Assembly: GCA_003155135.1 (NCBI GenBank)
Contig: PMFN01000004.1
Span: forward strand, 1-64,000
Direction: 5' to 3'
DNA from: Acidimicrobiaceae bacterium
Lineage (GTDB): Bacteria; Actinomycetota; Acidimicrobiia; Acidimicrobiales; RAAP-2
DNA length: 64,000 nucleotides
Part shown: positions 994 through 26,212 of the stretch, in pieces
Layout of the letters: each line of letters opens with the position of its first letter
Numbering within the stretch: the stretch's first letter is position 1
Translations under genes and position numbers: made by a program
The notes under the pieces: model-generated
The model's database searches: none
Seen by the model: only the letters and a program-made list of their open reading frames with translations
What the model was told of the DNA's origin: nothing

Positions 994-995
994 CG

Positions 996-2987: not shown

Positions 2988-5221
2988 TCCGGCTCGGCCT
3001 GCGCTTGACCCTTGCCAGTGGACGTGAAGCGGCTCTTCGAGTCCTTATCACGGCAGCAGCCGTGGCCCTGGGCGTTGGCCTGCTGCTGGCCTGTTTCGCT
3101 GGAGTGAACGGGCTTCACGCCCAGACCGATCGTGGTGCGTGGCTCGACAGCGCAGCACAAGAATCAGGATCAACCTCGATAGCTAATCAGCTGTGGTGGG
3201 TGTCAGGCACTGATCAGTTCGCCGGCCAGGAGATCGACCAGGTCGACCTTGCCGCCACCGGACCGAGCGCTCCAGTCCCTCCAGGGATTGCGCACCTTCC
3301 GGGACCGGATGAGTACTACGCTTCACCTGCCCTGACGACGCTCCTTCGGTCCGAGCCGGCGGATGAGTTGCGTGACCGCTATCCCGGCCGCCAGGTTGGG
3401 ACCATAGGCGCCGCCGCCCTGCCGTCTCCCAACTCGCTGATCATCATCATCGGCCACACGGCACACCAACTCTCCCAGGTACCCGGCGCGGACAAGATCG
3501 CAGCCATCCAACGCACGCCAGCTGACTGCTACGCCTGCCAGAACGTCACAGGGAGTGGACTAGTTCTACAATTCATTCTGGCGGCAGTAGCCGTTGCACT
3601 CTTGCTGCCGGTTCTGATCTTGATCGCCACCGCCAGCCGGCTTTCGGCCGCACGGCGCGAGGAGCGCTTTGCCGCGATGCGCCTTGTCGGCGCCACGCCA
3701 CGTCAGGTCTCTGTGGTCTCGGCCGTAGAGGCCGTGGTGGCGGCGGTAGCGGGTGTCGTCATCGGCTTCGGGCTCTTCTTCGTCTTCCGGCCACTCCTGT
3801 ACCGCGTGCCGTTCACCGGGGCCCCTCTTGCTCAAGGTGACCTCTCGCTCCATTGGATCAACGTTCTTCTGGTGGTGATCGGCGTTCCGTTGGCCGCAGT
3901 CGTTTCGGCCCGCCTCGCACTTCGCCGGGTCCAGGGGTCACCGCTCGATGTGAAACGGCGAGCGTCGGCCCACCCGCCGAGAATCGTGCGGATCATCCCA
4001 CTGCTCGCCGGCATCGCCCTGCTCGCGTACTTCGACTCGGCCGGCAAACCGGGTGCCATCGGCGGCCAGCTCCTCGAGCTGCTCGTGGGCTTCGTGCTTC
4101 TCGTGGTGGGACTGGTTCTCGCCGGACCGTGGTTCACCACCACCGGTTCTCGGCTCATGACGAAGCGGGCCAATCATCCCGCCACCCTCATCGCCGGCCG
4201 TCGACTCCTGGACAATCCCAAGGCCGCCTTTCGGTTCATCAGCGGCCTCGTGATCGCACTCTTCGTGGCCAGCGCGCTGATCGGGGCGCTCAGTTCCATC
4301 AAAGCCTTCGCCGGCAGCCCTGGCGAAGGGACGGCGGCGAACTCCACGCTCGCCGACCCGTTCTGCAGTTTCTCCACCACGGACTGCCCGGCTGCCGACC
4401 AAGTGTCTTCCGTGGCGCCCGAGGTGACAGCCGGACTCCGCTCGACGCCTGGCGTGCGAGCCGTGACTGTGGTCCACCAGAGCTCGTCCCAAGCTGGTAA
4501 CGGCAGATCATTCGGGTTCGTTTCGTGCTCCCAGCTCGCGAGAACGCCTGCCCTCGGGAAATGCGCTCCGGGTGCGACGGTGGCAAGTGTCGGCTACTTC
4601 CTATCCCATGTCCTTGGGCACAGCTCACACGCGTCGGCGACGGTGTGGCCTTCCGCCCATTTGTCAGCGGCGACCCTGGCGAGCCTTCCCGTCGATGCCA
4701 TCGTCGTAGCCACGGACGGAACGACTGGCTCGCTCGAACGGGTGCGAACCACACTCGAACGGGACTTTCCTTTTCAGGGGACGCCGGTGGCGATCGATGC
4801 GCTCGATCCGTCGACCGCTCGACTCCTTGCCATGATCCAAGACATGACCGACGTGATCATCGTGGCGAGCCTTATCATCGCCGCCTGCAGTCTGGCCGTG
4901 AACATCGCCGCCGGTTTGGGCGAGCGGAAGCGCCCGTTCAGCTTGCTCAGGCTCACCGGCGTTCCCGTCGGCGTTCTTCGTCGGATCATCACACTCGAGA
5001 GTGCGCTGCCGCTTCTCATCGTCGCTGCCGTGTCGATTGTGGTCGGCCTGGTAGCAGCGGCCCTCTACCTCCACTCACAAGTCGGCATTGCCTTTCGGAT
5101 TCCCGGGATCGCCTACTGGGCAACTGTCCTCGGTGGGCTCGGTGCATCGCTCGCGATCATTGCCTCCACGTTCCCGCTTCTCAACCGGATGACAGGACCC
5201 GAAGTCGCCCGTAACGACTGA
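2984..5221 (+). CDS. FtsX-like ABC permease
   Basis: The 745-residue membrane protein begins with a TM helix (about residues 15-40), then an external domain of about 160 residues. A block of FtsX-type helices follows (about 195-330), then further TM segments (about 335-385 and 415-440), a second external domain, and a C-terminal FtsX block (about 620-740). This duplicated FtsX layout is typical of large actinobacterial permeases paired with MacB-type ATPases. The external domains contain paired Cys residues (DCYACQ; FCSFSTTDC) that could form disulphides. It is the last gene of the PadR-ABC operon in the islet. Confidence 0.85.
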   Translation: MIRLGLRLTLASGREAALRVLITAAAVALGVGLLLACFAGVNGLHAQTDRGAWLDSAAQESGSTSIANQLWWVSGTDQFAGQEIDQVDLAATGPSAPVPPGIAHLPGPDEYYASPALTTLLRSEPADELRDRYPGRQVGTIGAAALPSPNSLIIIIGHTAHQLSQVPGADKIAAIQRTPADCYACQNVTGSGLVLQFILAAVAVALLLPVLILIATASRLSAARREERFAAMRLVGATPRQVSVVSAVEAVVAAVAGVVIGFGLFFVFRPLLYRVPFTGAPLAQGDLSLHWINVLLVVIGVPLAAVVSARLALRRVQGSPLDVKRRASAHPPRIVRIIPLLAGIALLAYFDSAGKPGAIGGQLLELLVGFVLLVVGLVLAGPWFTTTGSRLMTKRANHPATLIAGRRLLDNPKAAFRFISGLVIALFVASALIGALSSIKAFAGSPGEGTAANSTLADPFCSFSTTDCPAADQVSSVAPEVTAGLRSTPGVRAVTVVHQSSSQAGNGRSFGFVSCSQLARTPALGKCAPGATVASVGYFLSHVLGHSSHASATVWPSAHLSAATLASLPVDAIVVATDGTTGSLERVRTTLERDFPFQGTPVAIDALDPSTARLLAMIQDMTDVIIVASLIIAACSLAVNIAAGLGERKRPFSLLRLTGVPVGVLRRIITLESALPLLIVAAVSIVVGLVAAALYLHSQVGIAFRIPGIAYWATVLGGLGASLAIIASTFPLLNRMTGPEVARND

Positions 5222-5480
5222 TCGAACGCAGGCCGCCAGCGCCCAGAGAGGGTCTGGCGTACTTCGGCTCGCCATGAGTAGCGGTTGGCCATCCGCTGTC
5301 CATTCAGTCCGGCGAGGGAGGTTGGGGTGCGAGCGCAGTCTGACCAGCAATCAGAAGGACGATGTCGCACCAAGCCTCAGCGAGTCCCAGATGATCCAGC
5401 GGCGTCGCAGTCAACTGTTGGCCTTTCGTTGGCTCATTTTTTAGGCCGCAACCAGGACTTTCATGTGAGTGCCACTGGGG
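5222..5480. other. Right end of islet, noncoding
   Basis: I see no gene here. GTTGGC motifs at 5417 and 5428, 11 bp apart and followed by a T-rich run, mirror the pair at 254 and 266 near the left end. They may be arm-type recombinase sites. A simple terminator for the permease transcript was not found. Confidence 0.45.
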
Positions 5481-5581
5481 TTGTTGGCTACATTGCTGGC
5501 GCAACTATCAGCACAAGCCTCTGACCTGGACTTATCTTGCGCGCTCGGCAGGATTCGAACCTGCAACCTTCTGATCCGTAG
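5481..5581. repeat. Right att-like direct repeat, overlapping intact tRNA-Arg
   Basis: Matches 26-126 without gaps; positions 5539-5581 are identical to 84-126. This copy is continuous with the 5' half of tRNA-Arg and so is the junction that keeps a functional tRNA. Confidence 0.85.
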
Positions 5582-5613
5582 TCAGATGCTCTAATCCGTT
5601 GAGCTACGAGCGC
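5540..5613 (-). tRNA. tRNA-Arg (anticodon ACG)
   Basis: On the minus strand the sequence folds into a standard cloverleaf: acceptor GCGCTCG/CGAGCGC, D arm GCTC/GAGC, anticodon stem CTGAC/GATCAG region with loop CTACGGA (anticodon ACG), and T loop TTCGAAT. The discriminator base is G and CCA is not encoded. A TAGAGT box at 5665-5670 (minus) could be its -10 element. The 3' half is the integration target of the islet. Confidence 0.93.
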
Positions 5614-5772
5614 TGGCTGACCGCACAAGACCCGCAGATCCGGTCCTCGCAACGGCAGTCCGTAACTCTATCCGACCGCCGGGACGCCCTTCCCACGGGC
5701 AGGATGAGCGCCCCCGCTCCGGCGCTTCTTCTTGAACGGCACGTAGGCGTTCGCCGCTTCGGCGCCGCTGGG

Positions 5773-7083
5773 TCAGCCCGCGGGCACCCACACCCGTCCC
5801 GAGGTGCTGGCCTCGCCGTGCCCGATCGCCTGCTGGGCACCCTGGTAGAGCAGTCCGAGCGTCTGGTCCACCGAACCGGCGTCGAGCGCAGGCGTCCACG
5901 CCACATAGTTGAACAGCTGCCACGACCAGAAGGCCGACGTGAAGGACACGTCAGCCTTCATCGACCATTGCCGGGTGATGGTGAGGAAGCGCTGGTCGAG
6001 CGGCTCGAAGAACGAGTACGCGTCCAGCTTGGACTCGGTGCTCGACTGGGTGACATTGGCGCCGAGCGTCGTCGTTCCCTTGTACAGCCAGACCTCGTCG
6101 GCGACGATCGGCTTGTGGACCTGGTTGGCGAGCTCGGCGGTCGCCACGATGGTGGCGCTGATCTGTGGGCTCAGCGGATAGATGTGCTCGACGAGCACGT
6201 TGACGCCGGTCCGGGCGATCGCTTCGTCATAGGAGATCGGGAACCACGAGGCGGCGCCTGCACCGATCTCGGTTGACCTGTGCGCCCCGATCCCCGCCAG
6301 CGTGTCGTTGATGAACTCGACGACGCCGGCCTGGGTCTCGAGGGCGGGGATCTTGGTGAGGTTGGCCTCGGTATTCGGCTCGGAGAGGATGTCGAGAAAG
6401 TCGGGGTGGACCCGCGCTATCACGATCTTCGCCTGCTCGGCGCTGAGCTGTGCCCACCCTGCGACGGTGCTCGGGTAGTTGTAGGAGCACGTCGAGAATG
6501 CGGTGCCGCAGAACAGCCCCCCGAGTTCCACGTCGATCGTGAAGCCCCGCTCGCGCGCCTGGCGGGCGACCGCCGCATAGAAGTCGGCATAGTTCGCGGC
6601 CCTGGGCGTGTACTGCGAGAGCAGCAGCGGGAGCTTGATGCCGATGGTGACCCCGGTCACCCCGAGACGTTGGAAGGCGTCGAGCTCACCCTCCACCCTG
6701 GTGAGCGCACCTGGCGCCAGGAGCTTTGCCTGTTGGTTGCCGTTGGCGTCGAGCAGCTCGGCCGCCGGGTGGAAGCTCGGAGCCGACGGGCCTGTGGCGC
6801 GGTAGTCGGGCATGGCGGCGACGGCTGCCTGATAGCTGTCGAGGCCGGCGCTCAGCTGCACGTAGAGCGCTGCGTACTGCGCCGGGACGGGGCCCGGCGG
6901 TGTTGCAGCGACCGAGAGTGCGGGAGCCGTGGTGGACCTCCTGCTCGGCACTGAGGTCGACGGCGCGCCCGACGACGAGGTGCACGCAGCAGCCACGAGC
7001 GCGACGGCGACCACTGCGGCCCCGACGGCCAGCGCGGCTGGAGTTGGCATCTTTCCCACGCGCCCTCCTCTGGGTGTCGCCAT
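5773..7083 (-). CDS. Secreted lipoprotein, glycoside-hydrolase-like
   Basis: The 436-residue protein has a basic N-terminus, a hydrophobic stretch and a lipobox VAAAC with the modified Cys at residue 34. A Ser/Thr/Pro-rich linker follows (35-65). The rest looks like a TIM-barrel glycosidase of the clan GH-A kind: an SEPNTE segment (E235) that resembles the acid/base motif, and VADEVWLYKG (E330) where the nucleophile would sit, with HIYPLS between them. Family assignment is by eye only and no substrate can be named. The ATG at 7083 was preferred over the ATG at 7050 because it has GGGAGGG just upstream and supplies the positive n-region. It is a single-gene unit divergent from the UspA gene. 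Confidence 0.6.
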   Translation of the reverse strand: MATPRGGRVGKMPTPAALAVGAAVVAVALVAAACTSSSGAPSTSVPSRRSTTAPALSVAATPPGPVPAQYAALYVQLSAGLDSYQAAVAAMPDYRATGPSAPSFHPAAELLDANGNQQAKLLAPGALTRVEGELDAFQRLGVTGVTIGIKLPLLLSQYTPRAANYADFYAAVARQARERGFTIDVELGGLFCGTAFSTCSYNYPSTVAGWAQLSAEQAKIVIARVHPDFLDILSEPNTEANLTKIPALETQAGVVEFINDTLAGIGAHRSTEIGAGAASWFPISYDEAIARTGVNVLVEHIYPLSPQISATIVATAELANQVHKPIVADEVWLYKGTTTLGANVTQSSTESKLDAYSFFEPLDQRFLTITRQWSMKADVSFTSAFWSWQLFNYVAWTPALDAGSVDQTLGLLYQGAQQAIGHGEASTSGRVWVPAG

Positions 7084-9960: not shown

Positions 9961-11373
9961 ATGACCGACTTGCCCTGGGCGGGGGACGCCTGCTCGCTGG
10001 TTGCCGCCCTGCGTGCAAAGGAGCTGAGCCCGACCGAGGCGCTCGACGGCTCCCTCGCTGCGATAAGGGCGTCGAGTCTCAACGCCGTGAGCTTCGTCGA
10101 CGAGAAGGCCGCCTACCGCACTGCCGCTGCTTCGGACGTGACCCTTCCCTTCGGCGGCGTCCCCATGGGCATCAAGGAGCTCGTCTCGGTGCTCGGTTGG
10201 CCGGCCACCGAGGCCTCCCTCGTCCTGGCCGACCAGGTGAGCCCGGTGGATTCGACGATGGTCCGGCGGCTGCGCGCTGCCGGTGCCGTGCTGTGTGCCC
10301 AGACCACATCGAGCGAGTTCGGCGGCATCAACTGCACCTCCACCCGCCTGCACGGCACCACCACCAACCCCTGGGATCAGACCCGCACCCCGGGAGGGTC
10401 CTCGGGTGGCTCGGCGGCAGCCGTGGCAGGGGGGCTCCTGCCGATCGCATCGGGCAGCGACGGCGGCGGCTCCATCCGCATCCCCGCCGGCTTCAGCGGC
10501 CTACTCGGGCTGAAGGCCACCTTCGGCCGCATCCCGAAGGGGCCCCATACCGAGATCGAGCCGCTGACCGCGGTGCTCGGCTGCGTGGCCCGCTCGGTGG
10601 CAGACACCGCCCGCTGGTTCGACGCCTGCAACGGCAACGACGAGTACGACCCCTTCAGCTTGCCCGGCGTTGGTGGCTGGGAGGCCGGGCTCGGCTCCTT
10701 TGACCTCTCGGGCCTGCGCGCGGTCATCGTCCCCGACCTCGGGTCCGCCATCGTGGCCGGTCCGGTCGCCGCCCTCGTCGAGGAGGCGGGAACGGCCCTC
10801 CTGGCGGCGTGCGGCGGCCGCCGCATCGACGTTGCCGTCTCGGTGCCACAAGGGGGCCGCGAGTGGATGATGGCAGGCACAGCGAGTCTCCTGGCGGGTC
10901 TCGGGGACCGCTACCCGGACTGCGTGCCCGACCTCACCCCCGAGATCGTCCTCGGCGCGAACATCACGACGCGGCACTTCGACGCGAAGGCGGCCATCAA
11001 CATCGAGCTCTACCGGCGAAAGGCCATCGTGGCGATGGCGGAGCTGTTCGAGCGCGTCGACGTCATCATCTGCGCCTCCAACCCCGACGTGGCCTTCGCC
11101 GCGGCCGGGCCCATGAGCACGACGGTGGGCGGCGTCGACCTGATGGCCGAGTATGGCTTTGACCGGGCCATCTCGAACAATGGTGCGCTGACCATCCCGG
11201 CCAACACCACAGGCAACCCGGCGATCTCGATCCCGGTGGGCTGCGTCGACGGCCTCCCGGTCGGGATGCAGGTCATCGGCCGCCACCACGCGGAGCCCCT
11301 GCTGCTCGACCTCGCTCTCGCCGTCGAGCACGAGCGGCCCTGGCCACTCGTGGCGCCTGGCGCCCCGCTCTGA
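9961..11373 (+). CDS. Amidase-signature family hydrolase
   Basis: The 470-residue enzyme has the complete Ser-cisSer-Lys triad of the amidase signature family: Lys72 in MGIKELV, the GGSSGGSAAA motif with Ser147/Ser148 (cis-Ser), and the nucleophile Ser171 in GSDGGGSIRIPA. These cytoplasmic enzymes hydrolyse amides, including aryl and alkyl amides and some carbamates or nylon oligomers. GatA is unlikely, because no gatB or gatC is adjacent and the C-terminus differs. It is a single leaderless gene whose end is 9 bp from the convergent P450 gene. Substrate not predictable from sequence alone. Confidence 0.88.
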   Translation: MTDLPWAGDACSLVAALRAKELSPTEALDGSLAAIRASSLNAVSFVDEKAAYRTAAASDVTLPFGGVPMGIKELVSVLGWPATEASLVLADQVSPVDSTMVRRLRAAGAVLCAQTTSSEFGGINCTSTRLHGTTTNPWDQTRTPGGSSGGSAAAVAGGLLPIASGSDGGGSIRIPAGFSGLLGLKATFGRIPKGPHTEIEPLTAVLGCVARSVADTARWFDACNGNDEYDPFSLPGVGGWEAGLGSFDLSGLRAVIVPDLGSAIVAGPVAALVEEAGTALLAACGGRRIDVAVSVPQGGREWMMAGTASLLAGLGDRYPDCVPDLTPEIVLGANITTRHFDAKAAINIELYRRKAIVAMAELFERVDVIICASNPDVAFAAAGPMSTTVGGVDLMAEYGFDRAISNNGALTIPANTTGNPAISIPVGCVDGLPVGMQVIGRHHAEPLLLDLALAVEHERPWPLVAPGAPL

Positions 11374-11382: not shown

Positions 11383-12615
11383 TCAGGCCGCGGTCAGGCG
11401 CACGGGCAGCGTCTCGAGCCCGCGCAGCACGACGTTGCGCCGATAGGACGGTCGGTCCTCGACGAGCTCGATCGTCTCGACGCGCCGGAGCAGCTCGGGA
11501 ATGGCCACCTGGGCCTCGAGACGGGCCAGCGGCGCACCCAGGCAGTGGTGGATCCCGAAACCGAAGCCGAGATGGTGGTTGGGGGCCCGGCCGAGGTCGA
11601 AGACCTCGGGGTCCGTGAACGCCATCGGGTCGCGGTTGGCCGACCCGATGAGGATGATCACGAACTCGCCCGCCTCGAGGTCGGCTTCTCCGACGGTCAT
11701 CGGCTCGAGGAGCGTGCGCCCGGTGAGCTGGACCGGTGAGACGTAGCGCAGCATCTCCTCGACGCCGCTGCGCACGACGCTCGGGTCGGAGCGGAGGCGC
11801 TCGAGCTGGACAGGGTGCTGGACGAGCGACAAGACGCCCCCGGCGATCAGGTTCACGGTCGTCTCGTGGCCGGCGACCAGTAAGAGGATGGCCGTCGAGA
11901 TGAGCTCCTCTTCGCTCAGTGTGTCGCCTTCCTCTTCGGCCAGGGCGAGCTGGCTCAAGAGGTCGTCGCCAGGATTGGCTCGCCGCTCGGCGAGGAGCTC
12001 GAGCAGGTAGAGCCCGAAGGAGGTGATGGCCTCCATACGCGCCGCGATGACCTCCTCGGTGAGGAGGAACTCCGGATCGAGCCCGCGGGCCAATGCGGCC
12101 GACCATCCCTGGAACCGCTCGTGGTCGGCCACCGGCACGCCCAGCATCTCGCAGATGATCCGCACCGGCAGGGGGTAGGCCAGGTCGGCCACGACGTCGA
12201 GCTCGCCCCGCTCGAGTGCGGCGTCAAGCAGCTCGGCCACGATGGCCTCGGTTCGGGCCCGGAGGCCATCGATCATCTTCGGGGTGAACGCCTTGGCCAC
12301 GAGGCCCCGCAGGCGTGTGTGGTCAGGAGGGTCCCGGAACAAGAAGGGGCGGTTGTCCACCTCGGCCTGGGCCAGCGAGCCATCGTCGTCGGCCACGGAT
12401 CGGCGCAGACCGGCCGGCGGCACCTTGGTGATATCGACCTGGGTGCTGTCCGAGGAGGCACGACGATCGCGCAGAAGGGCCTGGCAGTCAGCGTGGCGGG
12501 TCACGACCCAGAACCCCTGCTCGCTTCGCTGCAGCCTTCCCGCCTCGCGCAACTCGGCGTACAGCGGCCACGGATCGCTTGCCCACTGTGGGTCGGTCGG
12601 GTCGTAGCGGAGCAT
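11383..12615 (-). CDS. Cytochrome P450
   Basis: The 410-residue soluble class I P450 has an N-terminal YDPTDPQWASDPWPLYAELR, the I-helix AGHETT (about 240), an ExxR helix (EMLRYVSPV) and the heme loop FGFGIHHCLG with proximal Cys358. It needs ferredoxin and ferredoxin reductase partners, which are not nearby. The ATG at 12615 falls inside the 3' end of the VirD4-like gene, giving a 128-bp same-strand overlap. The conserved P450 N-terminus begins right after this ATG, so the start is secure. A TACGCT box lies 8 nt upstream of the ATG and could allow independent expression. Substrate unknown. Confidence 0.93.
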   Translation of the reverse strand: MLRYDPTDPQWASDPWPLYAELREAGRLQRSEQGFWVVTRHADCQALLRDRRASSDSTQVDITKVPPAGLRRSVADDDGSLAQAEVDNRPFLFRDPPDHTRLRGLVAKAFTPKMIDGLRARTEAIVAELLDAALERGELDVVADLAYPLPVRIICEMLGVPVADHERFQGWSAALARGLDPEFLLTEEVIAARMEAITSFGLYLLELLAERRANPGDDLLSQLALAEEEGDTLSEEELISTAILLLVAGHETTVNLIAGGVLSLVQHPVQLERLRSDPSVVRSGVEEMLRYVSPVQLTGRTLLEPMTVGEADLEAGEFVIILIGSANRDPMAFTDPEVFDLGRAPNHHLGFGFGIHHCLGAPLARLEAQVAIPELLRRVETIELVEDRPSYRRNVVLRGLETLPVRLTAA

Positions 12616-14113
12616 GGGGCGATAGCGTACCGGTGGCGCCCCTCCTCGGCTCCTGTGCCGTCCCGCGACTTGCGAGCCAGCGGTGCTGCCACCACGGGAC
12701 GAGCCGCACGCGCGCCGGTGCGAGCGCGCCGTACACCAGCAGTGCGGTGTGCGGATCGAGACGGCGCAGTGCGTCGGGGGGGAGCAGCGGGGCGCGCACC
12801 GGTGCTCGGGACCGGGACCACGTGCCGCGCCCGTCTTCGGACTCGCTCGCCATCCAACGCTGCTCCTCACCGACGAGGTGACTGGCATGGTCGAGTGTCG
12901 CCGGGTCGGCGATGCCCGGGAGGAAGAGGCGCGCCCGGTGGTTGTTGAGCACCGTCGGCGCTCTGGGCCCGTAGCGCGCGCTGATCTGGGAGAGGTCCTG
13001 CCACACGGTCACGAGCTGGATCCCGTGCCCGGCGCAGGTGGCGGCGAGGCTGTCGAGCTCGGCCAGCGGCGTGATGTTCGCAGCCTCGTCGAGGACCACC
13101 AGCAGGGGCGGGTCGAGGGGAGCCCCGCGTCGGGCCGCCGCGCTGAAGGCGGTTTCGAGGACCTGCTTGGTCAGGGCGCTGAAGAGGGACCGCAGCCGCC
13201 GCTGATCATGCGCCGGCGCGCACAGGTACAGCGTGTTGTTGCCCTCGAGGAGTCGGACCACATCGATGGCCGGCACCCCGGGGGTCCCGAGGGCGCCGGG
13301 CTCGGCGAAGCCGACCAGAACCGACTCGACCGTGGCGTAGACCGACGAGCGCTGGCGCTCCTCTCTGACCCACGACGCCTGGGCCGCCAGGGACGCCGCC
13401 TCGTCGCCTGCCCGCTCGAGCAGCATCGCCACCTCGCCCACCTCTTGGGTGTCCACCCAGCGCTGCACGTCGGCCATGTCCCGTCCACCGGTGGCCGCCG
13501 CGAAGAGGAGGGCCGCGAGCAGCTTGGCGGCGAGGGCGTACCAGAAGTCACCGTCCGCCAACGCATCGCCGGCCCGGCCGACCTCGGTGAGATCCGACGC
13601 CAGGCGGCGCGCGCCGGGCCACGTGCGTGCAGCGGGAAGCGGTGACCATGGGCTCGCCGGGAGGCCGCTGTCGCCGGCAGGGTCGAAGCACCAGACGGTG
13701 CCGCAACTGCGGCGCCAGTGCCCGGTCGCCGACACGAGATCGGTCTTGATACTGGCGGCAAGGACGGGCCCTTCCCACGACAGGATGGCGGGCACCGCCA
13801 CACACGAGGTCTTCCCGCTCTGCGTGGGCCCGACGACCGCCACCGACTGCGCACGCTCCGCTGCCAGGAGCCTCGCCCCGCGGCCCCGGGCCGCCGTACC
13901 GAGGAGCAGCCGACCTGACGCGCCGGGCGCCACCACGAGGGGGGCGAGCTCCGAGGTGCTCGCCCATCGAGCCGTTGCTGTCTGCTCCGCCCGCTGCCAC
14001 GCTCGAGGCGCCCCGCTCGCACCCTGGGTCCTTCGCCCCTGCCGGGGCATGCGGTCGGTGAGCGCGACCACCGCGACGAGCGCGACCACCGCCAGCACTG
14101 CCACATGGTTCAT
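12488..14113 (-). CDS. VirD4/TraG-like coupling ATPase of conjugation-like system
   Basis: The 541-residue protein has one N-terminal TM helix (residues 3-19), Walker A GPTQSGKT (95-102) and Walker B LLVVLDEAAN (about 330), then a typical T4CP C-terminal motor region with VTVWQDLSQI. Such proteins couple DNA or protein substrates to a type IV secretion channel. The ATG overlaps the stop of the VirB4-like gene (ATGA). The conserved part ends near LLVYGALAPARV; the last 50 or so residues are a basic, low-complexity tail coded where the P450 gene already begins, so they may be recent or dispensable. Only one TM helix, rather than two, is visible. No relaxase gene is nearby. Confidence 0.82.
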   Translation of the reverse strand: MNHVAVLAVVALVAVVALTDRMPRQGRRTQGASGAPRAWQRAEQTATARWASTSELAPLVVAPGASGRLLLGTAARGRGARLLAAERAQSVAVVGPTQSGKTSCVAVPAILSWEGPVLAASIKTDLVSATGHWRRSCGTVWCFDPAGDSGLPASPWSPLPAARTWPGARRLASDLTEVGRAGDALADGDFWYALAAKLLAALLFAAATGGRDMADVQRWVDTQEVGEVAMLLERAGDEAASLAAQASWVREERQRSSVYATVESVLVGFAEPGALGTPGVPAIDVVRLLEGNNTLYLCAPAHDQRRLRSLFSALTKQVLETAFSAAARRGAPLDPPLLVVLDEAANITPLAELDSLAATCAGHGIQLVTVWQDLSQISARYGPRAPTVLNNHRARLFLPGIADPATLDHASHLVGEEQRWMASESEDGRGTWSRSRAPVRAPLLPPDALRRLDPHTALLVYGALAPARVRLVPWWQHRWLASRGTAQEPRRGATGTLSPHAPLRPDRPTVGKRSVAAVRRVARGGKAAAKRAGVLGRDPPR

Positions 14114-15396
14114 CTGCCATCGGCCCCCATGGCGGCATCGGTGTCGACGAGAGGCCCTTCGTCGGGAGCCAGGCGGTGCTGAACGAGGAAGGAACGGGCC
14201 CCCACCTTCCACAGCGCCACCCCGCGGCGAAGCTGCGGGAGCAGGTCGGCCTCGGTGGGACTGAGGGACAACAGGTCGCGAGCGGCGCGCACTTCACCGG
14301 CGGGCTGCGCATAGATGACCCTCGTCTCGGAGTCCGAGAGGAGGCCTTGCGCGAGGCCGACCTGCTCGGACCCCGCCGAACCGACCGCCTGGAGGTCCGA
14401 GGCCCGGTGCAGGACCGCGATGTTAGCGACGCCAAAGGCGCGTGAGAACTTCCATGACGCCTGGAGCCAACGCGCGACCCCGAGGTTGGCCAGGATGGCC
14501 CAGGCCTCGTCCACCACGACGATGAGGCCGTTCGACGCGCCGGGCCGCTCTCGTGCCTCCCGGGCGAGTGCCGACTGGAGCCAGGCGCTCGCACATGCCA
14601 TGAGCACGCCGAGCGCACTCGAGTTGTAGAGCGCCGAGAGGTCGAGGACCACGAGCGGTGCCGACAGGTCGATGGTCGCGCTGGTCGGCCCGTCGAACAT
14701 CCCCCGCAGGTCGCCGTGCACGAGCCTGCGCAGCTCGAGCGCCACATCGCGGCCGTCCTCGAGAAGGCGACGCTCATCGCTGCGAACGGCCAGTGCGGAT
14801 GCCGCACTCGGCGACAACAGCGTGTCGATGACGCGCGGCAACGTGGGCACGTCGGAGGCACCCGCCAGGGCGGCGAGGGCCAGTTCGATGGCGACGCGCT
14901 CGCGTGGCACGAGGACACGGCCGAGACACGCGCTGGCCAGTGCGGCCAAGAGCTCGAGCTGGCGACGGTCGGCGCCGGAGCCGCCCTCGGCGGACTCGGG
15001 CGGACTCGGCCCCGGCTCGAGCGGGTTGAGCCGCACCTGCCCCCCGGGTCGCAGGGCCACCGGCTGAACGCCCCATGCGGCCGCCAGGTCCGCATACTCG
15101 CCCTTGGGGTCCACGACCCAGGCGCGCCTTCCGTAGACGGCCTGGCGCCAGAGGTAGGTCTTGATGAACGAGCTCTTGCCCCGCCCGATCTGGCCAAAGA
15201 CCACCATGTTGGGGTTCGAGAGCACGCCCTGGGCGTAGAGCTCGAACGGGTCGTAGACGAAGGCGCCCCCGAGGAGGTCGTGACCGATCACGACACCACG
15301 GTGACCAAGCCCGGCTTCTGCGAGCAGCGGGTAGGCGGCGCCGAGGTTGGCCGTTGTGATCTGGTGTGCCGGCAGCTTCGGGGCGCGCCCGCTCAT
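14110..15396 (-). CDS. VirB4/TraC-like ATPase (C-terminal ATPase half)
   Basis: The 428-residue ATPase begins with a conserved actinobacterial segment (KLPAHQITTANLGAAYPLLA) and has Walker A GQIGRGKS (about 68-75), DPKGEY, and Walker B IVVVDEAWAIL. It corresponds to the ATPase part of VirB4, the energy source of type IV secretion. The SCO6880-like gene just upstream supplies the N-terminal part as a separate protein. The ATG at 15396 was chosen because conserved sequence begins seven residues later; GTG codons at 15420 and 15498 are alternatives, the latter overlapping the upstream gene by 56 bp. The stop overlaps the VirD4-like start. Confidence 0.82.
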   Translation of the reverse strand: MSGRAPKLPAHQITTANLGAAYPLLAEAGLGHRGVVIGHDLLGGAFVYDPFELYAQGVLSNPNMVVFGQIGRGKSSFIKTYLWRQAVYGRRAWVVDPKGEYADLAAAWGVQPVALRPGGQVRLNPLEPGPSPPESAEGGSGADRRQLELLAALASACLGRVLVPRERVAIELALAALAGASDVPTLPRVIDTLLSPSAASALAVRSDERRLLEDGRDVALELRRLVHGDLRGMFDGPTSATIDLSAPLVVLDLSALYNSSALGVLMACASAWLQSALAREARERPGASNGLIVVVDEAWAILANLGVARWLQASWKFSRAFGVANIAVLHRASDLQAVGSAGSEQVGLAQGLLSDSETRVIYAQPAGEVRAARDLLSLSPTEADLLPQLRRGVALWKVGARSFLVQHRLAPDEGPLVDTDAAMGADGR

Positions 15397-15442
15397 GGGC
15401 GTGCCCTGCGACACGAGCACCGCGGCGTCCGGCGACGCCGCG

Positions 15443-16966
15443 TCATGACAGTCCCCGGCCCAGCGGGAAGGTACAGAAGAATGCTCGCTCCTGGTCACCG
15501 AACAGGCGGCGCAGCTCGAGCCTGCACTGCCCCGCGGCTTGTTCGGTCGCGTCGCAGGCGCGCCCGAGCAGCAGCTCGGACCGAGCGGTGACCGTCACGT
15601 AGCCCGAGAAGCGGAACGCCCCGTGGCCGTCGGCGAGCTCGGCCTCTCGTTGGACGACGAGGTCGCTTTCGCGCGAGCGCCGGGCCGTGGCGAGAAACCC
15701 CCCTCGCGAGCGCAGCTCGGCGTCGGCGATGTCGGCGATGCGCGCGTGCTCCACCCCGCGCACCGCCCTCGCCGGGGCCAGCGGCTCCATCACGACGCTC
15801 ACGGATCGGCGGACCGAGCCGAGCAGGAGCGGCCCGAGGAACTCCGAGCTGACCTCGACTCTCGGCCACTCGGCGATCCAGTATGTGGCGTGCCACGTGT
15901 CATCGGCGCGCAACGACGACCAGCCCGACTCGAGGGCCATGGGCCATGGCCACGTCCCGCCCGTGGCCGGGACCTGCGCCGCCGCCCAGTTGGGTTCCGC
16001 CGCGAACCCTCGCCGCATGGCACTCGCCAGCGCCGTCGCGTCGAGCACGGCATCGACGGTGATGTCCGCCTCGTCCAGCAGCCGTTGCAGCGTGGCGATC
16101 TCCCGGCGCAACAGACCGATAGTGCCGCTCGATCCCCCTCCCTCCGCCCGGCGGGCCCGCGCGCTGGTTCGGTCGGCACGGATGCTGACCGCGAGCAGGA
16201 CTTCGTGGCGCGTCGTCTGCGCGCCCACTGCGGCGAGGAGCGCGGCGTACGAACGGCGAGCAGGGGCGTGTTCGTCGAGCCGGGCACGCTCGGCGAAGAA
16301 TTGCCGGGCGGGTGCGCCGTCGTCGGGGAGCGACCGGGCCAGCCACTGCAGCCGGTGCACGAGCGAGCCCTCCCGGGCCAGCGCGCCGAGCACCCCGGCC
16401 CACGCCGACACACGTCGCTGCTTGTCGCCCGCAGCGAGCAACGAGAAGCTCTGGCCGCGAATGGCCAGGACGGCCGTGGTCGTCCTGGCCATGGCGTCGG
16501 TGACGACGGCGAACGAGCCGTCCTGCCCGGGGCCCTCCCCGTTGCGTGGGTCGGCAGCGCAGATGGCGAGCCGACCGAGCGGACCCCGGTCCCAGCGTCG
16601 TCGACCCCGGTCCGCCTTTGCCGCTGCGCCCGGCACGCCGTCTGCACGAACGCCCCCGGCCGCCGCTCCCGACAGTCGACGCGCGCCACGGGTCCGTTCC
16701 GTGCCGAACCGGGCGATCGTCGGGGCCCACTGCTCGAGCGTGCGGCCCCCGAGGGGCCACAACGCCAGCGTGATACCGCCGAGTACGGCGCAGAGGGCGA
16801 GCGCCACATTCCACGGCGTCGCACGACGGTGCAGGACCACGATGGCGATAACGAGCCCAGCGGCCACCGTGGCGATCTGGCCGCCCCGCCAGCCGGCGAT
16901 CAGACCCCTGCGCTCGAGCGGGCCGAATCGGTAGCGCGCCTCTCGCTCGGCGGCCTGCTCAGCCAT
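15443..16966 (-). CDS. SCO6880-family protein (PrgI/VirB4 N-terminal-like)
   Basis: The 507-residue protein begins RYRFGPLERRGLIAGWRGGQ and has two adjacent TM helices (about 30-80), as in PrgI-like subunits, followed by a long soluble part that resembles the non-catalytic N-terminal domain of VirB4. It has no Walker motifs. In actinobacterial conjugative elements the SCO6880 family always sits beside a VirB4-type ATPase. The ATG at 16966 overlaps the stop of the TrbL-like gene by 8 bp; a GTG at 16984 is an alternative. It is part of a five-gene operon and probably anchors the ATPase to the membrane channel. Confidence 0.78.
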   Translation of the reverse strand: MAEQAAEREARYRFGPLERRGLIAGWRGGQIATVAAGLVIAIVVLHRRATPWNVALALCAVLGGITLALWPLGGRTLEQWAPTIARFGTERTRGARRLSGAAAGGVRADGVPGAAAKADRGRRRWDRGPLGRLAICAADPRNGEGPGQDGSFAVVTDAMARTTTAVLAIRGQSFSLLAAGDKQRRVSAWAGVLGALAREGSLVHRLQWLARSLPDDGAPARQFFAERARLDEHAPARRSYAALLAAVGAQTTRHEVLLAVSIRADRTSARARRAEGGGSSGTIGLLRREIATLQRLLDEADITVDAVLDATALASAMRRGFAAEPNWAAAQVPATGGTWPWPMALESGWSSLRADDTWHATYWIAEWPRVEVSSEFLGPLLLGSVRRSVSVVMEPLAPARAVRGVEHARIADIADAELRSRGGFLATARRSRESDLVVQREAELADGHGAFRFSGYVTVTARSELLLGRACDATEQAAGQCRLELRRLFGDQERAFFCTFPLGRGLS

Positions 16967-18359
16967 CGCCTCGACCCCCGTCACCTTCGGCGGGGGGCAC
17001 CCACTTGATCACCGGCCCCATGTGGTCGCGCGCCAAGACATGATGGCCACGTCCGTCCCGTTCGGGCTCTTCCGCCGACCCTTGCGCCGCCGGCGCACCC
17101 CAGAGGGGGCGCACGCCCCGATCGGAGTAGCCCGGCGTCGGTCTCGTCTCACGCGCCCCCGGCTCATTCCCGCGCCAGAGCGGCACCGAGCTGCCTTCGG
17201 GCGCGGACCGGGTCGAACCGGCATTTTGGCCACCGGTCTCCGGCTGGGGGGACGAGCCGTTCGAGCGGCCGCCGCCCGCTGCACCCGGGGCGGATGTGGC
17301 CGACGACGGCCCGGGCGCCTCGAACTCGGACATGGTGCCCGTTCCGGGCACACCGGCGAGCGCGGGTTGAGCGCTGAGCTGGCTCATGGCGAACGACGCC
17401 GCCGACCGCGGCACGGACCCGAGCGATTGGCGGACCCTCGTGTGCGCGCCCTCGAGCTGGTGGACCGCCCCGGCCTCAATCGCCGGCAGCAGGCGGAGCA
17501 GCGTGAAGGGGGTGAAGGTGGCGAGCAGGAGCAGGGCGCCACCGCCGAGGACCGAGGCGAACCCCTGCTGGGTGCCCGACGCCAACGCACTGGCGGCCAA
17601 CGAGAGGACTGCCACGATCACGAACTTGCTCAAGATGAGCGCAGCGAGGGTGTCGACCAGCCGGCGGCACCAATGGGCGACGGCCGGCCAGACCAGGCTG
17701 GCCAGGCCGAGGGGGAGGAAGAGCACCGCCACGTAGATGGCCGCAGCGCGCACGAGCAGTTCCACCCACAGCACGAAGGCGCCGAAGACGACCAGCAGCG
17801 CCCCGAGCAGGGTCACGAACGTGGGGACGCCCTGCCCGGTTCCGGCCAGCTGGCCGACGAGCGAGCTGGCGAGGCCACCCAGCGCCTGGGAGATGTCCGC
17901 CCCCGAGCCCGAGGCGATCGCCGCGCTCATGGCATCGGTCGCGGCCAGCGAGAGCCGCACGAGTTCGATGGCAACGCCCGTCAGCAGCAGCGCCAGCGGG
18001 AGGTTCACCAGCGCGGCACGAACAAGTGGCCCCACCCGCTGCTGGAGGACCGCCTGGATCACCGCGGCCACCAGCATCGGGACCAGCAGGATGCACGAGA
18101 GCACCGCCATCGCCTGGTAGTGGCCGCCGAACCAGGACGAGCCGATGTCGACCGATGTCGTCGCAGCCAGGACCGAACCGATCTGGTCGAGCAGCCACTG
18201 GGCGCCGCCCACCACCCAACCGGCCAGGGCCTGGAGCACGGCGTCGGCCCCGGCCGTGGCCACCGTCGAGCCGACGCCGGTGGCGACCTGGCAGACGGGG
18301 TTGACCGAGCTCAGGCCCGGGCAGTCCGTGGTCGGCAGCGCAAGGAGGGCCGCGTGCAT
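16959..18359 (-). CDS. TrbL/VirB6-like polytopic membrane protein
   Basis: The 466-residue protein has an N-terminal region with two Cys (TDCPGL, PVCQV) and about seven TM helices between residues 40 and 310. A soluble Pro/Gly/Ser-rich cytoplasmic tail of about 150 residues follows and ends in a charged segment. The layout fits the TrbL/VirB6 family, which forms the inner-membrane part of type IV channels. The ATG at 18359 is preceded by GGGAGGAGGG. It lies between the DUF6112-like gene (35 bp upstream) and the SCO6880-like gene (overlapping), so all are co-transcribed. Assignment is from topology and gene order rather than strong sequence motifs. Confidence 0.72.
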   Translation of the reverse strand: MHAALLALPTTDCPGLSSVNPVCQVATGVGSTVATAGADAVLQALAGWVVGGAQWLLDQIGSVLAATTSVDIGSSWFGGHYQAMAVLSCILLVPMLVAAVIQAVLQQRVGPLVRAALVNLPLALLLTGVAIELVRLSLAATDAMSAAIASGSGADISQALGGLASSLVGQLAGTGQGVPTFVTLLGALLVVFGAFVLWVELLVRAAAIYVAVLFLPLGLASLVWPAVAHWCRRLVDTLAALILSKFVIVAVLSLAASALASGTQQGFASVLGGGALLLLATFTPFTLLRLLPAIEAGAVHQLEGAHTRVRQSLGSVPRSAASFAMSQLSAQPALAGVPGTGTMSEFEAPGPSSATSAPGAAGGGRSNGSSPQPETGGQNAGSTRSAPEGSSVPLWRGNEPGARETRPTPGYSDRGVRPLWGAPAAQGSAEEPERDGRGHHVLARDHMGPVIKWVPPAEGDGGRGDG

Positions 18360-18394
18360 TCACCCTCCTCCCGGGCCGGGTCGAACGGCGCACA

Positions 18395-18697
18395 TCAGTG
18401 CAGGCCGGTCCCCGTGTGGAAGAAGAAATTGATGAGGATGGGGGCCGCTCCGATGAGCAGTGCGGCGACCCCCGAGACCAGCACGGCACGACGGCCGGCG
18501 AATGACTGGTGGTAGTTCTGGGAATGGGCGCCGAGCGCCCAGGCCGCGGCCCCGATGACGAGGCCGGCGAGGGCCAGGATCAGCGCCCAACCGCCGAGGC
18601 CGTTCGTCAGCTGTTGGAGGGTGCCACCCCCTGGCAGACTGCTCGGGTCGGGATTGAGTGTGACGTCGGCCAGCCGGGCGAGAGGGTGGTTCCACAC
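18395..18697 (-). CDS. DUF6112-like small membrane protein of conjugation cluster
   Basis: The 100-residue protein has two TM helices (about 34-54 and 70-92) separated by the motif ALGAHSQNYHQSFAGRRAVL, which is characteristic of the small membrane protein that precedes TrbL- and SCO6880-like genes in Streptomyces-type elements (DUF6112). It is VirB2/VirB3-sized. No ATG fits; the GTG at 18697 (reading WNHPLARLAD) with AAGGAG 12 nt upstream is the best start. It is the first gene of the operon and faces the divergent kinase gene across 240 bp. Function unknown, probably channel structure. Confidence 0.7.
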   Translation of the reverse strand: MWNHPLARLADVTLNPDPSSLPGGGTLQQLTNGLGGWALILALAGLVIGAAAWALGAHSQNYHQSFAGRRAVLVSGVAALLIGAAPILINFFFHTGTGLH

Positions 18698-18937: not shown

Positions 18938-20440
18938 GTGACGGCCTTGCTCGCGAGCACGACATTCGGGTTGCCCCATGCCGCCGTCTATGCGATCGCC
19001 GGGGTCGTCTTCGTGGTGGCGGTGGTTCTGGCCGCCCTGCTCGGGAGGCGATCGGGGCGCCGTGCCCTCTCCCAGCGCCTGACTGCTCTCGGCACGAGGC
19101 TCGGCCTCGACCCGCCGGCCGACGACGGCACCATCGAGACCGCGCTGAGCTACCTGGAGCAGGTGACCGGGGCTGCGTCCGAAGCGGTCGCCGAAGCCAG
19201 CTCCGATGCCATCCGGCTCCGCCGCTCCCTCGACACGCTGCCGCAGGGCATCGTCTTGTGCGACGAGAACGGGACCGTCGTCTACCGCAACGCCCGCGCC
19301 AACGCCTTGATGACCAGCCGCCATGGTGACGCCCTCGCCGCCCAGGCGGTGACCGAGCTCCTCGAGGATGCGTGGCGGGCCAGCACCGCCGAGCGGACGC
19401 TCGACCTCTACGGGCCCCCGCGCCGCACCCTGACCGTGCGTGCACTGCTGATCGACGACGGCCGCCGACCGCTGGGCGTGATCGCCATGATCGATGACGT
19501 CTCCGAGCGCCGACGGCTCGAAGAGATCCGCCGGGACTTCGTCGCCAACGTCAGCCACGAGCTCAAGACCCCGATGGGCGCGCTCGGCCTGCTGGCGGAG
19601 ACCCTCGTCTCCGAGCCCGATCCCGATGTCGCACAGCGCCTGGCCAACCGGATCCACACCGAGGCGTTCCGGGTCAGCCGGATCATCGACGACCTCTTGG
19701 ACCTCTCACGGATCGAGTCCGAAGAGGCGCCGCCGCGCGAGCCCGTCCTCGTGAACCTGATCCTGGCCGACGCCGTCGAGCGGGTGCGGGCGACCGCCGA
19801 CCAGCGGGGCATCACGATCGAGCTGCGCGAGCCCTCCCCGCCCGTGGCCGTCGTCGGCGAGCGCCGCCAGCTCGTCTCGGCGATGCACGCGCTCTTGGAG
19901 AACGCCATCACGTACTCCTACGACAACTCCTCGATCACCGTGCTCGGCGAGGCGGTCGAGGAGGTCCCGCTCGATCCCGTACCCCCGTCGGTGGGCGCCC
20001 CGCCGCCGCCGCCGCCACCGCCGTCATTCGTGACCGGCGCCGAAGAAGGCCCGCGCCTCTTCGACGCCGAGGAGGTCGACGCGCAGCTCGCAATGGAGCA
20101 CACGCCGGCCGGCGGGACCGTTGCCGTGGCGGTCGAGGACCCCGAACCCGCGCCGTCCTTGCCATCTGAGAACGGGTGGCGCCACTCGCGCCGCACCGTG
20201 CGCCTGTCGGTCATCGACCACGGCATCGGCATCCCCTCGCGCGACCTCGACCGGATCTTCGAGCGCTTCTACCGCGTCGACCACGGCCGCAGCCGCGACA
20301 CCGGCGGCACCGGCCTCGGGCTCTCGATCGTCCGCCACGTGGCCAACAACCACCAGGGCTCCGTCGAGGTTGACTCGCGCGAAGGCGAAGGGTCGACCTT
20401 CACGCTCGTCCTGCCGCTGATGCCGGACAGGAACCCATGA
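18938..20440 (+). CDS. senX3: PAS-containing sensor histidine kinase (SenX3-like) with ATPase-domain insertion
   Basis: The 500-residue kinase has a TM helix near residues 15-37, a PAS domain (about 85-195), a HisKA motif NVSHELKTPMG with phospho-acceptor His207, the N box with Asn322 (LENAITYSY), G1 DHGIGIP at 427 and G2 GGTGLGLS. Between the N box and G1 are about 105 residues instead of the usual 30-40; the extra part includes a run of eight prolines and an acidic stretch. The start is GTG at 18938 with CATGCT 6 nt upstream, close to the leaderless pattern. It overlaps the regulator gene by 4 bp. SenX3/PhoR kinases sense phosphate status, but no phoU or pst genes are adjacent, so the signal is uncertain. 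Confidence 0.82.
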   Translation: MTALLASTTFGLPHAAVYAIAGVVFVVAVVLAALLGRRSGRRALSQRLTALGTRLGLDPPADDGTIETALSYLEQVTGAASEAVAEASSDAIRLRRSLDTLPQGIVLCDENGTVVYRNARANALMTSRHGDALAAQAVTELLEDAWRASTAERTLDLYGPPRRTLTVRALLIDDGRRPLGVIAMIDDVSERRRLEEIRRDFVANVSHELKTPMGALGLLAETLVSEPDPDVAQRLANRIHTEAFRVSRIIDDLLDLSRIESEEAPPREPVLVNLILADAVERVRATADQRGITIELREPSPPVAVVGERRQLVSAMHALLENAITYSYDNSSITVLGEAVEEVPLDPVPPSVGAPPPPPPPPSFVTGAEEGPRLFDAEEVDAQLAMEHTPAGGTVAVAVEDPEPAPSLPSENGWRHSRRTVRLSVIDHGIGIPSRDLDRIFERFYRVDHGRSRDTGGTGLGLSIVRHVANNHQGSVEVDSREGEGSTFTLVLPLMPDRNP

Positions 20441-21204
20441 GCCAGCGACGCGTGCAGAGCGCCGAGTCCGACCTGCGCCCCATCTCGGTGCTCTTGGCCG
20501 AGGATGAGGAGTCGTTCATCGATGCACTCGTGATCGGCCTCGGGAACGAGGGCTTCAAGGTCACGGTCGCGCGCGACGGCGTCGAGGCGCTCCGGCTCTA
20601 CGACGAGAACCAGCCCGACATCGTCCTCTTGGACATGATGCTGCCGCGGCTCTCGGGCCTCGATGTGTGCCGGACCATCCGGACGCGCTCGAACGTCCCG
20701 ATCCTGATGGTGACGGCCAAGGGGACCGAGATCGACACCGTCGTGGCCCTCGAGGTCGGCGCGGACGACTACGTGACGAAGCCCTACCGCCTCCGAGAGC
20801 TCGTGGCCCGCATGCGCGCCGTCCTGCGCCGGACGCCCGAGCCAACCACCGGGGGGGCGGCAGCGGGATGGGACGAGCACCTCGGCGAGGACCCGATCCC
20901 CGAGATCGGGGGCATCCGGTTGGTCCTCGACCAGCGCCGGAGCTTCGTGCGGGGTGAGGAGGTCCACCTCCGTCGCAAGGAGTTCGACCTGTTGCGCCTT
21001 CTCATGGAGAACGCCGGGAGGGTCCTGACCAGGGACGTCCTGATCGACCGGGTGTGGGGTACCGACTACATCGGCGACACCAAGACGCTCGACGTGCACA
21101 TCAAGCGACTCCGCAGCCGTATCGAGGTCGACCCCTCGAACCCGGTGCTGATCACCACCATCCGGGGTGTGGGCTACCGCTTCGACGGCGCCGTCACGAG
21201 CTGA
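20437..21204 (+). CDS. regX3: OmpR-family response regulator (RegX3-like)
   Basis: The 255-residue protein has a receiver domain (about 17-130) with acidic pair AEDEES, phospho-acceptor Asp in IVLLDMMLPR, and K in VTAKG, then an OmpR winged helix (about 155-250) with RRKEFDLLRLLMENAGRV and VWGTDYIGDTKTLDVHIKRL. A linker of about 25 residues separates the domains and is longer than usual. The ATG overlaps the kinase stop, so the two form a cognate pair. It binds DNA as a phosphorylated dimer; the targets are not deducible here. The gene ends 19 bp from convergent serS. Confidence 0.88.
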   Translation: MSQRRVQSAESDLRPISVLLAEDEESFIDALVIGLGNEGFKVTVARDGVEALRLYDENQPDIVLLDMMLPRLSGLDVCRTIRTRSNVPILMVTAKGTEIDTVVALEVGADDYVTKPYRLRELVARMRAVLRRTPEPTTGGAAAGWDEHLGEDPIPEIGGIRLVLDQRRSFVRGEEVHLRRKEFDLLRLLMENAGRVLTRDVLIDRVWGTDYIGDTKTLDVHIKRLRSRIEVDPSNPVLITTIRGVGYRFDGAVTS

Positions 21205-21223: not shown

Positions 21224-22528
21224 TCAGGGGGCGCTGATCACCAGCTGCTCGCCCATGAACGGGGCGAGCACGGCCGGGAGCACCACGGAGCCGTCAGCCT
21301 GGCGCCCACACTCGACCAGCGCGGCCCAGATGCGCGCCCAGGCGAGCGCCGAGCCGTTGACCGTGTCGGCGAAGACCGGTGCGCCGCCGCCGGCGGGCCG
21401 GTAGCGAACGTTGGCCCGCCGGGTCTGATAGTCGCGGTACCAGCTGACCGAGGACACCTCGAGCCAGCGGTCCGAGCCCGGCGCGAACACCTCGAGGTCG
21501 AACGTGCGCGCCGCGGGGCCGCCGAGGTCGCCGGTGCACAGGTCGAGCACTCGGTAGGTGAGGCCGAGCGCTCGCAGCAGGCCCTCGGCCCGGGCCAGGA
21601 TGTCGGCCTGGGCGCCGGCCGCCTGCGCCTGCGTTGCGTAGGCGAAGAGCTCCACCTTCTCGAACTCGTGGACTCGGAGCAGCCCTCGGGTGTCACGGCC
21701 CGCCGCACCGGCCTCTCGGCGGAAGCAGTGGGTGATGGCGGTGTAGCGCAGCGGGAGCTGCGCTTCGTCGAGGATCTCGCCACGGTGGAGGGAGGTGAGC
21801 GGCACCTCGGCCGTCGGGATGGCCCAGAGGTCGTCGCGCTCGACGTGATAGGCCTCGTCCGCGAACTTCGGCAGGTGCCCGGTCGAGGTCATCGTCTCAG
21901 TGAGCACCAGGGTCGGCGGGTTGATCTCTTCGTATGCGTCGCGATGCGCGTCGAGGGCCAGGGTGGTGAGCGCTCGCAGCAGTCGCGCCCCGGCCCCGCG
22001 GAAGAGGGGGAACATCGAGCCCGCCAGCCGCGCACCGCGCTCCATGTCCAAGATGCAGAGCTGCTCGCCGACCTCCCAGTGGGGGACACGCTGGTGCTCT
22101 GGCCATGCCGGCTCGGGGTCGCCGTCGTCTGAGCCCGGCCACCACCGCCGGACCTCGACGTTCTCCTGCTCGCCCGAGCCGTCCGGCGCATCCTCCGCCG
22201 GGATGTTCGGCAGGTAGAGCAGCGCCGTACGGACCTCGGCGGCGGTGACGTCGGCCTCGGCGGCGGCGGCACGTTCGTCGTCGCCGACCACCTTCGACTC
22301 CTCCGAGAGCGCGGTGGCCTTCTCATCGTCACCGGCGCGCTTGGCCTCGCCGACCTGGCGGGAGAGGTCTTTCACCCGTGCCCGCAGGGATTCCTGGCGG
22401 CCGCGGCGCGCCCGCGCCTCGACGTCGAGCTCGACCAGCCGGTCGACCTCGACGTCATCGACCCCACGGCGCGCCAGGGACCGCTTCACGCCGTCGGGGT
22501 CCTCGCGCAGCAGCCGGATGTCGAGCAT
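21224..22528 (-). CDS. serS: Seryl-tRNA synthetase
   Basis: The 434-residue class II synthetase begins with the canonical MLDIRLLREDPDGVK, followed by the antiparallel coiled coil (about 28-105) that contacts the long arm of tRNA-Ser. The catalytic domain has motif 2 (THCFRREAG, then HEFEKVE) and motif 3 (TVNGSALAWARIWAALVE). It charges tRNA-Ser with serine in the cytoplasm. The coiled coil is enriched in Ala, Glu and Arg. The ATG is 10 nt from a TACCGT box that also forms part of the divergent promoter at 22539-22548, and no Shine-Dalgarno is evident, suggesting a near-leaderless transcript. Confidence 0.95.
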   Translation of the reverse strand: MLDIRLLREDPDGVKRSLARRGVDDVEVDRLVELDVEARARRGRQESLRARVKDLSRQVGEAKRAGDDEKATALSEESKVVGDDERAAAAEADVTAAEVRTALLYLPNIPAEDAPDGSGEQENVEVRRWWPGSDDGDPEPAWPEHQRVPHWEVGEQLCILDMERGARLAGSMFPLFRGAGARLLRALTTLALDAHRDAYEEINPPTLVLTETMTSTGHLPKFADEAYHVERDDLWAIPTAEVPLTSLHRGEILDEAQLPLRYTAITHCFRREAGAAGRDTRGLLRVHEFEKVELFAYATQAQAAGAQADILARAEGLLRALGLTYRVLDLCTGDLGGPAARTFDLEVFAPGSDRWLEVSSVSWYRDYQTRRANVRYRPAGGGAPVFADTVNGSALAWARIWAALVECGRQADGSVVLPAVLAPFMGEQLVISAP

Positions 22529-26139: not shown

Positions 26140-26212
26140 GCCCCCATCGTCTAGCGGCCCAGGACGCCGCCCTTTCAAGGCGGTAACACGGGTTCGAATC
26201 CCGTTGGGGGTG
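26140..26212 (+). tRNA. tRNA-Glu (anticodon TTC)
   Basis: Cloverleaf with acceptor GCCCCCA/TGGGGGT, anticodon stem CCGCC/GGCGG enclosing CTTTCAA (anticodon TTC), and a T loop TTCGAAT. Discriminator G; CCA not encoded. TAGGTT at 26111-26116 is a candidate -10 box. Confidence 0.95.

Follow-up and report, generated by a model that had tools for sequence, protein, structure and literature searches.

We think it probable that the operon described here belongs to a domesticated conjugation apparatus, encoded at two chromosomal loci, that moves chromosomal single-stranded DNA (ssDNA) between related cells. The operon lies in the window, by which we mean the whole stretch of DNA analysed (64,000 nucleotides, positions 1 to 64,000 of contig PMFN01000004.1 of an Acidimicrobiaceae bacterium). 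An earlier note on this DNA had seen in it a type IV secretion system (T4SS) core without a relaxase, perhaps a domesticated machine for transfer or uptake of DNA or protein, and not a conjugative element. The domestication stands, but the relaxase-less premise does not hold genome-wide: there is no relaxase gene at the operon, yet the same genome encodes exactly one MOBF relaxase on a different contig (G000:C33), beside the regulatory genes pafBC. With a dedicated relaxase of this kind inherited together with the T4SS, chromosomal DNA transfer gains weight over the broader "DNA or protein transfer/uptake".

All five components of the tightly packed operon, at 12488-18697 of the minus strand, could be identified (Table 1), in agreement with the first description of the locus. 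The set includes the VirB4 and VirD4 ATPases, TrbL and the SCO6880-family protein expected of an SCO6880-type conjugative T4SS. First in the operon is the DUF6112 gene. The AlphaFold (AF2) model of its product has helices at residues 24-59, 62-83 and 85-98 (pLDDT 78), and comparison of the model with the PDB gave no significant match; we view the protein as a predicted helical hairpin and a candidate VirB2-like pilin subunit. The TrbL/SCO6881-like gene keeps its position across the syntenic loci. The SCO6880-family protein consists of two N-terminal helices and a VirB4 N-terminal-like domain, and its AF2 model is of high confidence (pTM 0.86). All 14 PDB matches of this model at E<0.001 are to TrwK/VirB4 or to R388 T4SS complexes that contain it, and the earlier reading that VirB4 is split into two proteins is therefore correct; by its modelled structure, the SCO6880-family protein is the "missing" N-terminal half. 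The C-terminal half has an intact Walker A (GQIGRGKS) and Walker B (VVVDEAW) in the window. The Walker residues are invariant in the alignment, and both motifs are intact in 68/68 syntenic loci. The virD4a gene overlaps virB4 by ATGA. In various loci (L033-L154) the VirD4a Walker A often reads GPTQ[ST]xKT[ST], with the Gly before the Lys changed to H, M, Q, Y or R. Among the operon's genes there is neither a cell-wall hydrolase, as had been pointed out before, nor a VirB8-like protein.

Table 1. Features of the operon, its flank and the second locus (positions are those of the window unless a locus is named)
Feature	Position	Strand	Basis and remarks
DUF6112 protein, ~100 aa	18395..18697	-	Pfam PF19607 E=1.5e-7; GTG start; start, RBS and stop read from the sequence
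TrbL/VirB6-like polytopic membrane protein, SCO6881 family-like	16959..18359	-	NCBIfam NF047967 SCO6881_fam E=1.5e-15, under the profile's curated cut-off
SCO6880-family protein	15443..16966	-	NCBIfam NF042935 E=3e-74
VirB4 C-terminal ATPase (P-loop motor), without N-terminal half	14110..15396	-	NCBIfam VirB4-type profiles
VirD4-like coupling ATPase (VirD4a)	12488..14113	-	Pfam PF02534 E=7.5e-34; TraG-D_C E=2.4e-22
Histidine kinase (HK)	18938-20440	+	Pfam; divergent from the operon
Response regulator (RR)	20437-21204	+	Pfam; partner of the HK
Seryl-tRNA synthetase (SerRS)	21224..22528	-	Named from synteny and sequence; synteny conserved
MOBF relaxase, 469 aa	L155:8769-10178		TrwC E=1.8e-70
Interrupted virB4 loci	L256:2456-4233; L265:8502-10831; L255, L257-L259, L261, L263, L264		Several genera and one other family

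P450 and amidase genes flank the operon on one side, and the HK/RR, SerRS and ABC ATPase genes on the other. The HK-RR pair is a conserved flank that anchors the locus, with the same neighbours at 68 loci. Two tRNA genes lie within ~13 kb (tRNA-Arg at 5539-5613 and tRNA-Glu at 26140-26213), but neither bounds an element. The contig carries no tyrosine integrase, and the three of this genome sit on other contigs. A motif search of the DUF6112-HK intergenic region found a strong shared motif, CAGCATGGCAG, with TTGAAA, which was set aside as a regulator site and looks like the HK promoter. At the left end of the window, positions 1-6000 have a G+C content of 58-65%, against about 71%, and are possibly foreign DNA; they hold a pair of HTH/PIN-type genes (475-1556), an ABC ATPase gene and a large permease-like gene that ends near the tRNA-Arg gene.

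What accounts for the presence of the operon at this place? Of 100 genomes of the family, 93 have VirB4, at one locus, and of 198 genomes of the order, 80 have it (~40%). At about 120 loci we read the 18-20 kb that surround VirB4, and most of those with a long enough contig have the five genes in the same order beside HK-RR, SerRS and ABC genes. The RR is in place at 68 loci and not at 26, with a further 26 contigs too short. The 26 loci without it include mobile-type copies (e.g. L067-L069), loci where the HK/RR is absent or replaced, and a genus, g4, in which virB4-virD4 is separated from SCO6880-TrbL-DUF6112 with both halves retained (L038/L234 in G050, L083, L215 in G063, L079). The locus is conserved in the family and in many other families of the order. 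Family genomes that lack a VirB4 match are mostly explained by contig ends. Genome G025 (L217, L170) is different; it is near-complete and nearly contiguous, and a real loss of the T4SS has left a DUF6112 fragment and an intact-looking relaxase next to pafBC. In those members of the order that have no T4SS, the same HK-RR pair occurs without SerRS, and a gene for another ABC ATPase is its usual neighbour. Among cultured organisms, the syntenic operon (L135) is present in Aciditerrimonas ferrireducens, which also has a relaxase; the contig and coordinates of this relaxase equal those of genome G249, where the gene adjoins WYL and CtaG genes (L188).

For close pairs in the family and order, NG86 dN/dS ratios of the operon genes are 0.02-0.30, which indicates purifying selection, and SerRS and RR give 0.06-0.30; in one pair of more distant taxa (L241/L242) the ratios are higher for VirD4 and TrbL, at 0.5-0.66, and several of the dS values are near saturation. 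The operon is not an ICE: its locus is conserved, it tracks the host phylogeny and it is under purifying selection. The ICE hypothesis is also ruled out by synteny together with the lack of a tyrosine integrase on the contig; the flanks are housekeeping genes conserved across the order. The earlier note had proposed comparisons of synteny and of dN/dS, and had said that a relaxase and an integrase within 30 kb, or a sporadic presence, would speak against domestication; on every one of these points the result favours domestication. That the operon has been domesticated and passed on vertically we regard as practically certain. VirB4 proteins from other families of the phylum (f91, f99, f103; L235-L242) are placed inside the Acidimicrobiales clade or beside it and come from loci without the HK-RR flank, with a relaxase about 9 kb from VirB4 in L238; these copies could represent mobile relatives or a separate domestication.

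The second locus was found through the relaxase. A Pfam TrwC search detected a MOBF relaxase in 55/55 genomes, that is, in 54 VirB4 carriers and in G025, unlinked to the T4SS. MOBP relaxases, present in 5/55 genomes and absent from the window's own genome, were set aside as the relaxase of this T4SS. In the window's genome the MOBF relaxase gene (locus L155) directly follows a fused pafBC/WYL gene, with which it shares the strand, and lies tail-to-tail with a second VirD4-like gene, VirD4b. The two are neighbours in the window's family, whereas some other families of the order lack this adjacency. The relaxase adjoins WYL in 19/20 loci of one sample and in 22/24 carrier loci of another, where the two exceptions lie close to or at the end of a contig or show no WYL gene on the stretch; the same holds for L210 and L211, from two additional members of the family that evolve fast. 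By comparison, relaxases of T4SS-less genomes are beside WYL/pafBC in 0/11 loci, and in genomes with a mobile T4SS the relaxase is likewise not beside WYL. In an unfiltered sample of the order, the T4SS and any related relaxase co-occur strongly (75/5/24/94, Fisher p=1.5e-26), with a p value that overstates the association, as mobile copies are included and ancestry is shared. Upstream of the relaxase gene (L155, about 10178-10270, and relatives) there are palindromic words resembling TTTCA...TGAAA (CATGAAA in 14/43, TATTTCA in 11/43), a possible regulator or relaxase site. A search for oriT by k-mers shared upstream of the relaxase and VirD4b gave no convincing motif common to distant loci.

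The relaxases of this locus form a group of their own. On the relaxase tree the 46 pafBC-type proteins and 15 others occupy the two sides of a single branch (support 81), whereas shuffled labels require 13.6 changes on average. The first catalytic Tyr and the three His that are the hallmarks of MOBF are present in 46/46 pafBC-type relaxases, as is a clade signature, DPHLH. The pafBC clade has lost the second catalytic tyrosine pair (EDYY) that is seen in 14/15 mobile relatives; one pair of sequences in the alignment shows YY at a nearby, differently aligned position. A helicase region is clear in family f28 (AAA_30 E=2e-21) and weaker or weak in f49 and f50; it was undetected in the scanned relaxases of f31, f33 and f39 and in the window's 469-aa protein. 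As judged from these residues, the loss of the second Tyr fits nicking without the need to terminate and recircularise, which is what chromosomal transfer would require.

Do the two loci evolve together? Over 25 genomes the relaxase and VirB4 distances correlate with r=0.82. In a subset of 22 genomes r is 0.79 and the partial r given RR is 0.73, and 0 of 2000 permutations reached the observed value in a Mantel test. The relaxase is less well correlated with its physical neighbour WYL (r 0.57), and VirB4 with its own neighbours RR (0.57) and SerRS (0.50).

In the scheme of DNA transfer that we infer, its direction, substrate, oriT and regulation included, the operon would be the membrane and motor half of the apparatus. 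The other half would be the single-tyrosine MOBF relaxase, often with VirD4b, at its distant fixed locus downstream of the DNA-damage regulator genes pafBC. The relaxase would nick a chromosomal site and remain on the 5' end, and a VirD4 protein would pass the nucleoprotein to a channel of TrbL, the SCO6880-family protein (the N-part of VirB4) and DUF6112, with the VirB4 motor powering assembly and export. Chromosomal ssDNA would thus reach a related cell and then recombine. Loss of the second Tyr would fit such transfer, in which no element need be recircularised at the end. Several observations stand against transfer of chromosomal DNA by this apparatus: the search for an oriT gave nothing convincing, the operon has neither a cell-wall hydrolase nor a VirB8-like protein, G025 keeps the relaxase without the T4SS, and the Walker A Gly is altered in a number of VirD4a proteins.

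Several observations lend circumstantial support to DNA exchange. ComEC (PF03772) is missing from all of the carriers scanned (12/12, five families), whereas all of the order's T4SS-less genomes scanned have it (6/6, six other families). These 18 genomes amount to one or two evolutionary events and not 18 independent ones, because the ComEC+ and ComEC- groups separate on the RR tree with one or two changes, and this too weakens the argument for the apparatus that we propose. The virB4 gene is cut at its Walker B codons (about residue 300) in G004, G043, G005, G044, G062, G049 and G219; its N-half is then found next to the SCO6880-SerRS flank, and its C-half next to that of VirD4/P450/amidase. 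In two of these genomes, G062 and G044, the junction directly adjoins a large gene for a serine recombinase; in others the contig ends at the junction and an inserted element is not visible. This looks like a recurrent, site-specific attB inside virB4. The disabling of competence genes by inserting elements has been described as a conflict over DNA exchange (PMC4774983), and we suggest that the virB4 insertions may be a parallel to it. In mycobacteria ssDNA activates PafBC (PMC11804915), and ssDNA would also be the product of the relaxase; control by PafBC may be envisaged here. One might go on to imagine that ComEC competence was replaced by a two-locus conjugation apparatus, with the relaxase under or beside the ssDNA-sensing PafBC and with virB4 knocked out by serine-recombinase elements; we offer this larger scenario tentatively, and with more doubt than belief.

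Could the T4SS instead export protein effectors, or have an envelope or developmental role like that of Streptomyces Cmd, the relaxase being kept for an unrelated purpose? The encoding of two VirD4-type ATPases would suit such a role, as would the G025 relaxase without a T4SS, and cmdABCDEF of S. coelicolor offers a precedent for a host phenotype (PMC2782261). We consider this unlikely, since the unlinked relaxase and T4SS co-occur and co-evolve, the relaxase retains its full catalytic triad, and no conserved effector-like neighbour is found in the loci examined. The absence of ComEC from the carriers would also agree with a DNA import machine, like Helicobacter ComB or archaeal Ced, in place of ComEC competence; Ced is itself conjugation machinery that was domesticated on the chromosome and takes up cellular DNA (PMC9905601), and in several carriers the relaxase locus is flanked by genes for type IV pili. 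Ced and Ted, however, have no recognised relaxase, and here the sequences of a conserved VirD4 and a catalytically intact-looking relaxase would point to export of a nicked strand, so that import seems to us quite improbable. Extra MOBF or MOBP relaxases in some genomes of the family raise the thought of a channel that serves mobilisable elements equipped with relaxases of their own, the chromosomal one being incidental; since the window's own genome has the pafBC-type relaxase only, and benefit to hitchhikers alone would not maintain host genes, we give this very little credence. That the operon is an old or decayed ICE or the product of several independent ICE insertions is scarcely credible, for although the order itself (L067-L069, L251-L254) and plasmids harbour mobile relatives, a plasmid search found distant relatives only (the nearest VirB4s share about 35-47% identity, as compared with 60-77% for carrier relatives), the genes are intact, and for the window's lineage the conserved locus and flanks refute it.

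We therefore return to a domesticated apparatus for chromosomal DNA transfer. If true, an entire lineage of bacteria may possess its own system for the exchange of chromosomal DNA, a host-owned route of genetic exchange in a large bacterial clade, and the purpose of DNA exchange would become directly testable through the loss of ComEC, the PafBC link and the elements that insert into virB4. Bacterial conjugation machinery is regarded as a property of mobile elements (PMC9905601). A survey of actinobacterial ICEs looked for an integrase, T4CP, VirB4 and MOBF together (PMC3218068), and because all were required together, a two-locus system without an integrase would escape it. The parts are known, and the two-locus arrangement is apparently undescribed as far as we could find; among open-licence PMC papers there is no such system described in Acidimicrobiia, and nothing on DUF6112, while SCO6880 is named in a single paper.

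How does the apparatus compare with known systems? The SCO6880-type T4SSs of actinobacterial ICEs and plasmids have the same set of a VirB4 ATPase, SCO6880-family and SCO6881/TrbL-like proteins, VirD4 and a MOBF relaxase. Here, by contrast, there are two unlinked, vertically inherited loci and no element, and the relaxase is without the second Tyr and, in the window's family, also without the helicase region. With TrwC/TraI the relaxase shares the TrwC domain, the N-terminal Tyr and the HUH histidine triad; it differs in the loss of the second Tyr pair, in a helicase that is reduced or absent in most of the proteins scanned, and in its fixed place beside pafBC. In S. coelicolor, cmdABCDEF (SCO4126-4131) is likewise a conserved chromosomal cluster, with a VirB4-like CmdB and proteins resembling SCO6880 and SCO6881, and it affects sporulation, chromosome segregation and antibiotic production, for which the nucleotide-binding Lys of CmdB is needed; in the portion of that report available to us, the function is differentiation and no co-inherited relaxase is mentioned (PMC2782261). 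Streptomycete-like VirB4s (large genomes, f108) fall far outside the VirB4 clade described here. The archaeal Ced and Ted systems are likewise domesticated, chromosomal forms of conjugation machinery that act on cellular DNA, and they import DNA with no known relaxase, whereas here a MOBF relaxase and VirD4 are kept (PMC9905601). Like Ced, the present system is chromosomal and vertically inherited, and if it exchanges DNA as we propose, it would be a bacterial counterpart of the archaeal one.
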